Assembly: GCA_025061835.1 (NCBI GenBank)
Contig: JANXAC010000001.1
Location: 202,684 to 266,683 of the forward strand
Length of the DNA stretch: 64,000 bases
Origin: Spirochaetota bacterium
GTDB taxonomy: Bacteria > Spirochaetota > Brevinematia > DTOW01
Reading direction: 5' to 3'
Below, piece by piece: positions 3,187 through 35,089 of the stretch. Both the position numbers and the translations under genes were made by a program. Each line of letters opens with the position of its first letter. Positions within the stretch are counted from its first letter, which is position 1. The notes beneath the pieces are model-generated. The model saw only the letters and a list, made by a program, of their open reading frames with translations. It was not told the DNA's origin and searched no databases.

Positions 3187-3255
3187 GATAATAACATGAT
3201 TAAAATAATAACGATAATAAATAATAATAATATATATTATTATCATTATTATTGT
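3187..3255. repeat. AT-rich trinucleotide tract with 20-bp palindrome
   Basis: Run of about 65 bases almost wholly A/T with repeated AAT/ATA triplets, containing the perfect palindrome ATAATAATATATATTATTAT at 3224-3243 and a nearly symmetric extension on both sides. It lies immediately left of the first TGTGCG element at 3253. An unwinding-prone tract beside a cluster of protein-binding repeats is the layout of bacterial replication origins, but no dnaA gene or canonical DnaA box (TTATCCACA) was seen nearby, so the role is inference. Confidence 0.7.
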
Positions 3256-3714
3256 GCGCGTTTTTTATACAAAAATATTTTGGTAAAAATTGCTGAAGAG
3301 TGCTTCGGGACTTTGATTGAATGCACGCACAAAATTGTGCGTAGCAATGTGCGTACAATGTGCGTTTGTGCGTCAATGTGCGTAAAAAGGCTAAATTATG
3401 TTAACTTTGTGCGTCAATGTGCGTAGAAGATTCTTTGTTGATACCAAAATATTTTGGTAAATGGGCTCAAAAGAGTGCTTAAAGACTTACAGATCCAATC
3501 ACGCACATTTTGTGCGTGTCAATGTGCGTCGCATCACCAAAATATTTTGGTTTTTAATCCAAAAATGCAAGTCTTGAAGGTATATTGAAACATATTAAGA
3601 TTCACGCACAAACGAATATTTTCCACTAGCAACCAATTTACCAAAATATTTAGGTATTTTCTTTTGAAGGGTATATTCTGAATAGGTTTTGAATGCGCGC
3701 ACATTTTTGTGCGT
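3253..3714. repeat. TGTGCGT / ACGCACA repeat family, about 15 copies
   Basis: Copies of TGTGCG(T) on the plus strand start at about 3253, 3337, 3348, 3359, 3367, 3377, 3408, 3418, 3511, 3523 and 3708. Inverted copies (ACGCACA or GCGCACA) start near 3325, 3501, 3604 and 3697. Several pair into dyads: ACGCACAAAATTGTGCGT at 3325-3342, ACGCACA-TTT-TGTGCGT at 3501-3517, GCGCACA-TTTT-TGTGCGT at about 3697-3714. The 20-mer TTTGTGCGTCAATGTGCGTA occurs exactly twice, at 3365-3384 and 3406-3425. Many copies are preceded by CAA (CAATGTGCGT). Such GC-containing words stand out in AT-rich surroundings. Confidence 0.9.
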
Positions 3715-3765
3715 GTAAGAGAGATACCTAAAATACGACTAAAATTGATACCAAAATATTTTGGT
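3269..3765. repeat. Palindrome ACCAAAATATTTTGGT, five copies
   Basis: Perfect 16-bp palindrome at 3443-3458 (18 bp with flanking T/A), 3536-3551 and 3750-3765, and one-mismatch copies at 3269-3284 and 3640-3655. A half-site-like ACCTAAAATA lies at 3726. The last four are spaced 93, 104 and 110 bases apart. The full dyad symmetry suggests sites for a dimeric DNA-binding protein. The copies interleave with the TGTGCGT family, so two different proteins may bind this block. Confidence 0.9.
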
Positions 3766-3774
3766 TTTAGGTAG

Positions 3775-3799
3775 TCTAATTTTATTAGAATAATCTAAT
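3775..3799. repeat. TCTAAT / ATTAGA triple motif ahead of fliS
   Basis: TCTAAT (3775-3780), ATTAGA (3784-3789) and TCTAAT (3794-3799) alternate with short A/T spacers, so either neighbouring pair can form a hairpin. It lies 55 bases upstream of the fliS ATG and may be an operator or a leader structure. Function unknown. Confidence 0.5.
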
Positions 3800-16959: not shown

Positions 16960-17838
16960 TTAGATAAACAAGAACTTGGCAACTTTCTTCCTAATCTTGT
17001 AGCCACCGATAATAGTCGCGTATTTAAATAATTTGGGAACGTAATTTCTTTTAGTTAGGTTATCGTAATTTGAGAAGCGAACTGCGTTAAGTATCTCAAG
17101 ATACCATATACCTGCTAGATAGATAGAAGTTCTAACTTCCTTTTTCAACTTCCAGACTGTTCTGACATTCTCAAAGAAAATCTTTTCTGCTATTTCCATA
17201 AGCCTTTCAATCATAACCTTGTAGTTTCTAGTTATTATTCCTTTTCTTATGTCTTCAACACTAATGCTGTGTTCGTTGAGAAGTTCTGTAGGTATATATA
17301 TCCTATTTCTGTCTCTTATGTCTTCGCCTACATCTCGGATTATATTTACAATTTGCATAAACACACCGTAGTTATAGGCACTTTCATATAAACTATCAGG
17401 TTCATTGGATATTACAGGAAGTAGCATAGCACCGACAGAACCCGCGACAAGTCTAGAGTAGTAAATCAAATCATCTATAGTGTTTATAGGTTTTTTTAAT
17501 AAATCCCACCTTGCACCTTCTATTAGTTCTAGGAACGGTTCTATCCTAAATTTGTATGATTTGAAAGTTTGACTTAAAGCAATGAATATAAGGTCTTCAC
17601 CGTTATATTGTCCGTTATAAGAGAGTAGTAAGTCTCTTTTGACTCTCTCAAGTTCTTCAATACCTTTGGATGAATCGTTTGGAAACAATTCATCTGCGAT
17701 ATTATCAACTGTTCTGCAGTATGCATATATGCTCCAAAAGTGTTTTCTATCACTCAGTGGGAGTCTCTGTGATGCTAAATAGAATGTTTTGGCATACTTC
17801 TCCATTATACTTCTACAATATTCATAGGGATCTACCAT
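16960..17838 (-). CDS. crtB: Phytoene synthase (squalene/phytoene synthase family)
   Basis: Head-to-head condensation of two prenyl diphosphates. Both Asp-rich motifs that bind magnesium diphosphate are present: YCRTVDNIADE near 50-60 and IIRDVGEDIRDRNRIYIP near 165-182, with KTFYLASQRLP at the N-terminus. 292 aa. It overlaps the cruF-like gene by 7 bases and ends the operon. Given the crtI and cruF partners, phytoene synthase (C40) is favoured over squalene or dehydrosqualene synthase. Confidence 0.9.
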   Translation of the reverse strand: MVDPYEYCRSIMEKYAKTFYLASQRLPLSDRKHFWSIYAYCRTVDNIADELFPNDSSKGIEELERVKRDLLLSYNGQYNGEDLIFIALSQTFKSYKFRIEPFLELIEGARWDLLKKPINTIDDLIYYSRLVAGSVGAMLLPVISNEPDSLYESAYNYGVFMQIVNIIRDVGEDIRDRNRIYIPTELLNEHSISVEDIRKGIITRNYKVMIERLMEIAEKIFFENVRTVWKLKKEVRTSIYLAGIWYLEILNAVRFSNYDNLTKRNYVPKLFKYATIIGGYKIRKKVAKFLFI

Positions 17839-33350: not shown

Positions 33351-33366
33351 TGTTTCATGTGAAACA
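33351..33366. promoter_or_regulatory. parS site between parB and the ParB-fold gene
   Basis: TGTTTCATGTGAAACA differs at one position from the universal parS palindrome TGTTTCACGTGAAACA. It overlaps the ParB stop region side (stop at 33369) and lies 15 bases upstream of the next gene. Confidence 0.85.
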
Positions 33367-33368
33367 GT

Positions 33369-34241
33369 TTATTTTTTGTTCATCAAGATACTATAAATTT
33401 TTTCAAGGTCATCTCTAGAGTAGTAATTTATTACTATCTTTCCCTTATTTAAGTCGCCTATTACAGAAACTTTGGTTCCTAATCTTTCTATAAAGTCTTC
33501 TTCTATGTTTGAAATTTCCATGCTTTTTGAAATGTTTTTATTTTGTTTTGTTTCACGTGAAACATTCAGAGTTATACCAGAATTTTTGCGAAAATTGATA
33601 AGTTCTTCAAGTTCTCTAACAGATAAATTCTTGTCTATACACTCCTTTGCCACTTTTAGTATTTCTTCATCACTTTCTAGTGAAAGTAGTGTTCTACCAT
33701 GACCTTCTGAAAGTGTTCCTTGAATTATATATTCTTTAACCTTATCTGGTAATTTTAGTAGCCTTAAAGTGTTCGCAACGGCAGACCTACTTTTACCTAC
33801 GACTTTTGATATGTCCTCTTGTGTAAGATTGTATTTCTCTATAAGTTCGTTGTAAGCGCTAGCTAGGTCAATCGGGTTTAGATCTTCCCTTTGAATATTT
33901 TCTATCAATGCTAGTTCCAAACTGTTTGTGTCATCAATGTCATTTCTAATTATAACTGGAACCTCCGATAATCCAGCAATCTTTGCTGAACGCCACCTCC
34001 TCTCACCCGCTACTATCTCATAATATCCATTCCTCTCTCTAACAATTATAGGTTGTAATATCCCCTTCTCTTTTATTGATTCTGCAAGTTCCTTTAAAGA
34101 GTTTTCATTAAAGTTCTTTCTTGGTTGATTTGGATTTGGCTTTATCTTGTCAATACTAACATTGGTTATTTTTGATCTATCTTCTAAATCAAAGTCTTCA
34201 AGTAATGCTTTTATCCCCTTCCCAAGTCCTCTTTCCTTCAT
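33369..34241 (-). CDS. parB: Chromosome partitioning protein ParB
   Basis: CTP-dependent DNA clamp that loads at parS. 290 aa from ATG 34241, chosen because GGAGG lies 7 bases upstream inside the longer frame that starts at 34253. Motifs: ISIDKIKPNPNQPRKNF-type N-terminus, QPIIVRERNGYYEIVAGERRWRSA region with the CTP-binding GERRxR, HTH LTQEDISKVVGKSRSAVANT, and a C-terminal dimer segment. parA lies 14 bases upstream. A perfect parS is embedded in the coding sequence, as in Bacillus spo0J. Confidence 0.96.
   Translation of the reverse strand: MKERGLGKGIKALLEDFDLEDRSKITNVSIDKIKPNPNQPRKNFNENSLKELAESIKEKGILQPIIVRERNGYYEIVAGERRWRSAKIAGLSEVPVIIRNDIDDTNSLELALIENIQREDLNPIDLASAYNELIEKYNLTQEDISKVVGKSRSAVANTLRLLKLPDKVKEYIIQGTLSEGHGRTLLSLESDEEILKVAKECIDKNLSVRELEELINFRKNSGITLNVSRETKQNKNISKSMEISNIEEDFIERLGTKVSVIGDLNKGKIVINYYSRDDLEKIYSILMNKK
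33549..33564. promoter_or_regulatory. Perfect parS site inside parB
   Basis: TGTTTCACGTGAAACA, the exact bacterial consensus, within the linker-encoding part of parB before the C-terminal domain. It encodes part of NVSRETKQ. Together with the site at 33351 it forms a local parS pair 198 bases apart, the usual hallmark of an origin-proximal region. Confidence 0.95.
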
Positions 34242-34255
34242 ATAGACCTCCATAG

Positions 34256-35023
34256 TTAGATTTTATTTGCTGCTAATATTTCTTCTGCTACCTTTTGGTA
34301 TGCTATTGCTCCCGGACAGGTCGGATCATAATCAAATATTGATTTGCCATAACTAGGTGCTTCAGATAGCCTTACATTTCTAGGGATAAAACTGTTATAT
34401 ACTCTCTCTTTGAAATAATCTTTTGCCTGCTCTGCTACATCTTTTGATAACTTCGTCCTTATGTCATACATAGTCAGTAATAATCCTTCAATCGTCAATG
34501 AAGTATTGAGAGATTTCTGAATTGTTTTTATGGTTTTGAGAAGTTGAACTAATCCTTCCATGGCAAAAAATTCTGTCTGCAAAGGAATTAAAACACTATC
34601 CGCAGCAACTAGTCCATTTATTGTAAGAATGCCCAGCGATGGTGGAGTGTCTATAAAGATAAAGTCAAAGAATTCTTTAACTTCTGAAATAAAATTTTTT
34701 AGTCTGAAATCCTTATCTTCATAGTCCATTAGTTCAACCTGTGCTCCAGCCAACTGAATATTAGCAGGAAGAATGAATAAATTATCATATTTAGAGGGTA
34801 TAACAATATCATTTGGGTCTTCTTGGTTCATAAGTGCTTCGTAAGTTCCCTTTCTTGAACTGGAAAGTTCTATTCCAAGCCCCCTGCCAAGATTACCTTG
34901 AGGATCTATATCCACTGCTAAAACTTTGTAGCCTCTCATTGCAATGTAGTGCGATATATTTATGACAGTTGTTGTCTTGCCAACCCCACCTTTTTGATTT
35001 GCAACTACTATACACTTCCCCAT
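34256..35023 (-). CDS. parA: Chromosome partitioning ATPase ParA/Soj
   Basis: Deviant Walker ATPase that drives origin segregation with ParB. 255 aa from ATG 35023 with GAAGGTG upstream; the longer frame to 35089 begins inside the promoter. Motifs: VVANQKGGVGKTTTVINISH (Walker A with signature Lys), VLAVDIDPQGNLGRGLGI, FIFIDTPPSLGILTINGL, and RLSEAPSYGKSIFDYDP. parA-parB are co-transcribed. Confidence 0.96.
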   Translation of the reverse strand: MGKCIVVANQKGGVGKTTTVINISHYIAMRGYKVLAVDIDPQGNLGRGLGIELSSSRKGTYEALMNQEDPNDIVIPSKYDNLFILPANIQLAGAQVELMDYEDKDFRLKNFISEVKEFFDFIFIDTPPSLGILTINGLVAADSVLIPLQTEFFAMEGLVQLLKTIKTIQKSLNTSLTIEGLLLTMYDIRTKLSKDVAEQAKDYFKERVYNSFIPRNVRLSEAPSYGKSIFDYDPTCPGAIAYQKVAEEILAANKI

Positions 35024-35060
35024 ACCAACACCTTCTTGAATTATATGATAAAATAACAAT

Positions 35061-35089
35061 ATCGTAAAAACAAAATAAAGTCTTGTCAA
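35061..35089 (-). promoter_or_regulatory. Predicted parAB promoter
   Basis: Minus strand TTGACA (35089-35084), a 17-base spacer, TACGAT (35066-35061). Transcription would start near 35054, 31 bases before the parA ATG. Confidence 0.6.

Follow-up and report, generated by a model that had tools for sequence, protein, structure and literature searches.

Layout of the non-coding block

The window analysed here, a stretch of 64,000 nucleotides, covers positions 202,684 to 266,683 of C1, a 278-kb contig of a draft spirochaete genome of 1.80 Mb in 55 contigs (G000). The lineage is perhaps related to Brevinematales. Its flagellar genes include those for FlgC, recognized by sequence, and FliS, recognized by Pfam. 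A block of repeats centred on C1:206,176 has as its neighbours fliS and a periplasmic-binding-protein gene (Peripla_BP_2). No Rfam family matched the block. Its elements, in window coordinates, were as follows.

3187..3799, no strand: whole block, candidate oriC, non-coding; single copy, conserved in three congeners, with a skew switch
3201..3253, no strand: AT-rich candidate unwinding element with TTATT/TAA trinucleotide periodicity, 94% AT
3253..3259, + strand: box-like TGTGCGC at the edge of the AT tract; not kept in relatives
3269..3284, no strand: palindrome P1, ACAAAAATATTTTGGT
3325..3342, no strand: inverted pair of DnaA-like boxes, ACGCACA ... TGTGCGT
3348..3383, + strand: direct array of four TGTGCGT boxes (3348, 3359, 3367, 3377), 8-11 bp apart
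3393..3412, + strand: conserved core of 20 bp, AAATTATGTTAACTTTGTGC; exact match in all four species (G000 to G003)
3408..3424, + strand: two TGTGCGT boxes (3408, 3418)
3443..3458, no strand: palindrome P2, ACCAAAATATTTTGGT
3501..3529, no strand: inverted box pair (3501, 3511) and a direct box (3523)
3536..3551, no strand: palindrome P3, ACCAAAATATTTTGGT
3604..3610, - strand: single box, ACGCACA
3640..3655, no strand: palindrome P4, ACCAAAATATTTAGGT; relatives read ACCAATATTTATTGGT and ACCAAAATTTATTGGT
3697..3714, no strand: inverted box pair, GCGCACA ... TGTGCGT
3750..3765, no strand: palindrome P5, ACCAAAATATTTTGGT
3774..3799, no strand: terminal element, CTAATTTTRTTNGAAT-like (TCTAAT set), conserved in four species

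The preliminary description of this DNA had listed an AT-rich trinucleotide tract with a 20-bp palindrome at 3224-3243, about 15 TGTGCG(T) elements in both orientations, five palindromes with the last four spaced 93, 104 and 110 bp apart, and a TCTAAT/ATTAGA set. All of these were found. The 20-bp palindrome (ATAATAATATATATTATTAT) falls where the intergenic region is richest in AT (94% over 50 bp), and the count over the two strands was 15 for TGTGCG and 13 for TGTGCGT. The direct array at 3348 carries on from the box at 3336. Three of the five palindromes are exact copies of ACCAAAATATTTTGGT and two have one mismatch, and the first gap between them is 174 bp. TCTAAT by itself is common (182 occurrences in C1); the stretch at approximately 3774-3799 is kept in relatives.

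A genome-wide search for both motifs had been proposed as a check, and neither was frequent elsewhere. The 613-bp block makes up 0.2% of C1 and holds 13 of the 17 TGTGCGT copies of that contig, as well as five of the nine palindrome sites with at most two mismatches in the 1.8-Mb genome, whereas a reversed control pattern of the palindrome gave a single match. This clustering is far beyond chance. The block is present as a single copy in the window genome, with no further TGTGCRT cluster at the density searched, and as one copy per genome in the species compared.

Conservation and spacing among species

The relatives compared were three congeners (G001, G002 and G003), a member of another genus of the same family (G004) and, beyond these, class- and phylum-level relatives. 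Conservation in close relatives, likewise suggested as a check, was borne out, as the block was found in 3/3 congeners searched. The G001 and G002 copies were located by a paired-TGTGCGT search and the G003 copy by its 20-bp core. The order of the elements is common to all four blocks, the G002 contig stopping inside the array, and in the three species with this side assembled (the window genome, G003 and G001) the AT tract keeps to the same side of the array. No TGTGCRT cluster was found in G004, an assembly that is 82% complete, so that missing sequence would look alike; a near-match to the core in this genome was rejected, as the surrounding sequence held no origin elements.

The neighbours of the block differ in every species, in tandem as well as divergent arrangements. 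They are a protein without family assignment and phosphoglucomutase in G003, MlaD and Fe-ADH in G001, and FliM and the contig end in G002. The fliS loci of G001, G002, G003 and G004 were examined and found to be without the block; fliS orthologues were dropped as anchors, since the block does not travel with fliS. A contig search with FliS gave one distant planctomycete match, which was left unused.

Two alternatives from the preliminary description, a multi-promoter control region and a decayed mobile element, were found to fail, the first on the differing flanks and the second on the single copy, the conserved spacing and the lack of a plasmid or phage match. A multi-operator region controlling fliS or the periplasmic-binding-protein gene would suit the operator-like palindromes, a perfect copy of which is also found in two species upstream of the same gene, which codes for an alpha-amylase-like secreted protein (C2:32,924, L007 4,925, in the window genome; C1, L189 1,399, in G003). 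However, such a region does not fit with fliS loci that lack the block or with neighbours that change from species to species, and it leaves the skew switch and the proximity of parAB, both described below, unexplained. It was deemed highly unlikely. Descent from a mobile element, or from an integrated plasmid origin of the iteron type, is suggested by the direct repeats of about 10 bp, which resemble iterons, and by the variable gene neighbourhood. Gene order is strongly scrambled among these species, so that the neighbours can change without transposition. Moreover, searches of 72,556 plasmids and 50,697 phages gave no match to the block, no replication-initiator gene is among its annotated immediate neighbours, the skew switch at the block is chromosomal, and a mobile element would be expected neither at one copy per genome nor with spacing constrained across four species. 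We therefore give this explanation very little weight.

The tally of the spacing took in 16 intervals between elements, each in as many as four species, and gave 61 values. The intervals were picked out visually from the motif lists ahead of the tally, and the box at 3367 (element d) was excluded because it shifts by a few bases among species, the interval that spans it being 18-19 bp in all four. Fifty-seven of the 61 spacings were at most 2 bp off the commonest value, and the other four deviated by +11 bp (G003), +11 and +11 bp (window genome) and +9 bp (G001), in each case approximately one helical turn. The box at 3418 is accompanied by about 11 bp of extra length in the window species only. 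The distance from P1 to the inverted box pair is 56-57 bp in three species, and that from P5 to the last box is exactly 42 bp in all four. Identity among the species was 85% in the elements and, with the core excluded, 44% in the spacers. The four species thus amount to a natural experiment, in which the spacers have diverged to 44% identity while the spacing has been kept to within 1-2 bp or has moved by about one turn. This indicates that the rotational phasing of the origin complex is under selection, and selection acting on how bound proteins are arranged around the helix would be the plainest reading of the spacing.

GC skew, parAB/parS and dnaA

All compared assemblies of the genus are drafts, and skew was fitted on the contigs C1, G003 C3 and G001 C30. 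Fourfold-site GC skew was modelled as two states separated by one switch, with a further term to correct for gene strand, and the fit was compared with 200 gene-order shuffles. The switch was placed at C1:203,789 in the window genome, 2.4 kb from the block centre (bootstrap 5-95%, 200-211 kb), at C3:118,436 in G003, 6.5 kb from the block at 124,950 (bootstrap, 115-124 kb), and at C30:18,465 in G001, 1.5 kb from the block at 17,000 (bootstrap, 15.6-22.6 kb). The agreement in G003 is approximate, as the bootstrap interval stops 1 kb short of the block. In each of the three genomes, 0 of 200 shuffles matched the observed fit. The sign of the top-strand skew goes from negative to positive at the switch in either orientation of the block, and this is the change expected at an origin. 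The skew minimum proposed earlier as a check was thus upheld in one form and not in the other: the strand-corrected fourfold switch lies near the block, whereas the raw cumulative minimum lies about 25 kb to its left, the raw curve of C1 being a broad plateau and uninformative.

Two further observations on skew were made. For genes on the + strand, skew at fourfold sites flips again in the last 20 kb of C1 (260,000-278,130, starting at window 57,317), possibly as a result of a recent rearrangement or an assembly join. In G006, a single-contig class-level relative in which no box cluster was found, the raw skew minimum within the 360 kb read is at C1:799,392 (L164), a short way upstream of parA and some 875 kb distant from dnaA; several skew flips nearby make this position tentative.

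The preliminary description had also placed parS sites about 30 kb from the block. These were confirmed, together with parAB, to the right of the block.

33351..33564, no strand: parS, inside and beside parB: TGTTTCACGTGAAACA without mismatch at 33549 and with one mismatch at 33351
33369..35089, - strand: parB and parA, by Pfam matches; 30 kb from the block and transcribed towards it

In G003, parAB/parS lie about 20 kb to the left of the block and are also transcribed towards it. The distance was measurable in these two genomes, parAB and the block being on separate contigs in G001 and G002. A protein comparison between the window genome and G003 found no other genes common to the intervals between block and parAB. 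The dnaA gene is on another contig (C2:25,719), the block is not adjacent to dnaA or dnaN, and no negative-to-positive skew switch was found near dnaA. The usual linkage to dnaA is therefore of no help in locating the origin. Nearness to parAB/parS and adjacency to dnaA/dnaN are both usual in a bacterial oriC, but neither defines it.

The repeated boxes could titrate DnaA, and the block is within 20-30 kb of parS. It might lie close to the origin without being the start itself, acting as a centromere-like or nucleoid-organising site or, like datA, titrating DnaA. Against this, the block has its own AT-rich tract beside the box array, it is the sole TGTGCRT cluster of the genome at the density searched, and in the window genome the corrected switch maps to the block rather than to parS. 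A site of this type was judged improbable. The rarity of the motifs, the gene-strand-corrected skew and the conservation all agree with the origin reading of the preliminary description, as does the proximity of parAB/parS despite the scrambled gene order. It was concluded with high confidence that the block serves this spirochaete genus as its chromosomal origin of replication (oriC).

Putative binding proteins of the two motif families

The box element is TGTGCRT (R = A or G), and most G003 boxes are TGTGCAT. The reverse complement of the latter, ATGCACA, is identical to the final seven bases (positions 3-9) of the canonical E. coli box TTATNCACA; the window-genome box TGTGCGT (ACGCACA) is one base off ATGCACA. 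The canonical box itself was found 0 times in the block. Domain IV of the genus DnaA carries the changes P423S, D433V, T435S and H439R (E. coli numbering), with R399K besides in two species, and positions 423, 433, 435 and 439 are listed among the base-specific contacts in PMC7561715. Divergent DnaA boxes are known in other oriCs (PMC10316083). TGTGCRT is proposed to be a DnaA-box variant bound by the DnaA of this genus. The palindrome has the symmetric 16-bp consensus ACCAA-N6-TTGGT. The block sites keep ACCAA and TTGGT and vary in the middle (e.g., ACCAATATTTATTGGT and ACCAAAATTAGTTGGT), which fits a dimeric protein. As the preliminary description had supposed, the two motif families would be bound by two different proteins.

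From these elements we infer DnaA as the box binder, the site of opening, and the existence and role of a palindrome protein. A DnaA whose box-reading domain is unlike the E. coli type would bind the TGTGCRT elements, assembling into a filament along the inverted pairs as well as the direct array (3336-3424). Opening of the AT-rich tract at approximately 3201-3253 would follow, and the helicases would load there. The second, dimeric protein would bind the five ACCAA-N6-TTGGT palindromes and set bends or loops joining the modules. Since such bends or loops would bring the modules together, their relative rotational position would have to be kept.

The block is similar to the E. coli oriC in its DnaA-like boxes in both orientations, its candidate AT-rich unwinding tract and its interspersed putative sites for another DNA-binding protein, and the E. 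coli oriC, like the block, is not adjacent to dnaA. It differs in that the box TGTGCRT is without the TT of TTATNCACA and that the second protein would have five symmetric 16-bp palindromes as its sites. The IHF site is asymmetric, and the symmetric palindromes of the block do not fit its consensus. The orientation and spacing of boxes matter in oriC (PMC10316083, PMC8407004). The oriC of Thermotoga maritima offers a precedent in its divergent box, read by a DnaA whose contact residues in domain IV also diverge (PMC7561715, PMC10316083), but has an extended 12-bp motif and a minimal origin of 149 bp, and no second palindrome family is described for it in the available parts of PMC7561715 and PMC10316083. 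In that origin, box phasing matters and the DUE contains TTATT and TAG-type repeats (PMC10316083). The trinucleotide-periodic AT tract and the TAA repeats beside a box are reminiscent of the basal unwinding system of B. subtilis, in which the DnaA-trio is defined as at least three 3'-NAN-5' trios at most 16 bp from a DnaA box (PMC8287927). The window genome has TAA-type repeats directly next to TGTGCGC, a box that relatives do not keep; in contrast to B. subtilis, the conserved element nearest to the AT tract is the palindrome P1. Within the known category of oriC, this one is set apart by the box, the absent dnaA linkage, the helical phasing across species and a palindrome common to CRISPR leaders. 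The canonical box is a poor predictor of origins in uncultured lineages with dnaA away from the origin.

Good palindrome sites outside the block were few. Two are in a CRISPR leader of the window genome (C18; L006 300-482), one ending about 10 bp before the first repeat and the other 157 bp farther upstream, and the same pair occurs in G003 (C6; L192) beside an array with the same repeat. A leader-like locus of G001 (C69) has one site 10 bp before a repeat, a second 121 bp beyond the first and a third another 149 bp on; a matching layout lies beside degenerate repeats on C14, and C119 has the site pair with no array seen (the G001 leader loci include L198 and L200). In general, the nearest site is 10-11 bp upstream of the first repeat and the next is 120-157 bp farther upstream. 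Other matches (G001 C5 and C53; G002 C59 and C66; C3, C4, C24, C28 and C31 of the window genome) were rejected as low-scoring or chance-like.

The presence of the palindrome at the origin and in CRISPR leaders points to a putative host factor shared by both. E. coli IHF acts at oriC (PMC8407004) and bends the leader of type I-E and I-F CRISPR arrays (PMC13034035). The block palindrome is comparable as a host-factor site for both, but differs from the IHF site in sequence and symmetry; by analogy, a dimeric protein at the palindromes may have the part that IHF plays in E. coli. Each genome yielded a single HU/IHF-family gene, and the palindrome binder is therefore probably another protein. We suggest as a possibility, though less likely than not, that a genus-specific dimeric protein unrelated to IHF serves oriC, where its five palindromes are helically phased, as well as the acquisition of CRISPR spacers. 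If so, the dual oriC/CRISPR role of E. coli IHF would have been reinvented in this lineage, and immunity would possibly be coupled to the replication state. For several CRISPR types, the host factor that recognizes the leader is stated to be unknown (PMC13034035).

Weak palindrome-like sites were also observed a few hundred base pairs upstream of dnaA in the window genome (C2:25,416), G004 (L119 1,188) and G003 (L120 3,114), and none were found there in G001 or G002. These sites are low-scoring and might possibly reflect autoregulation.
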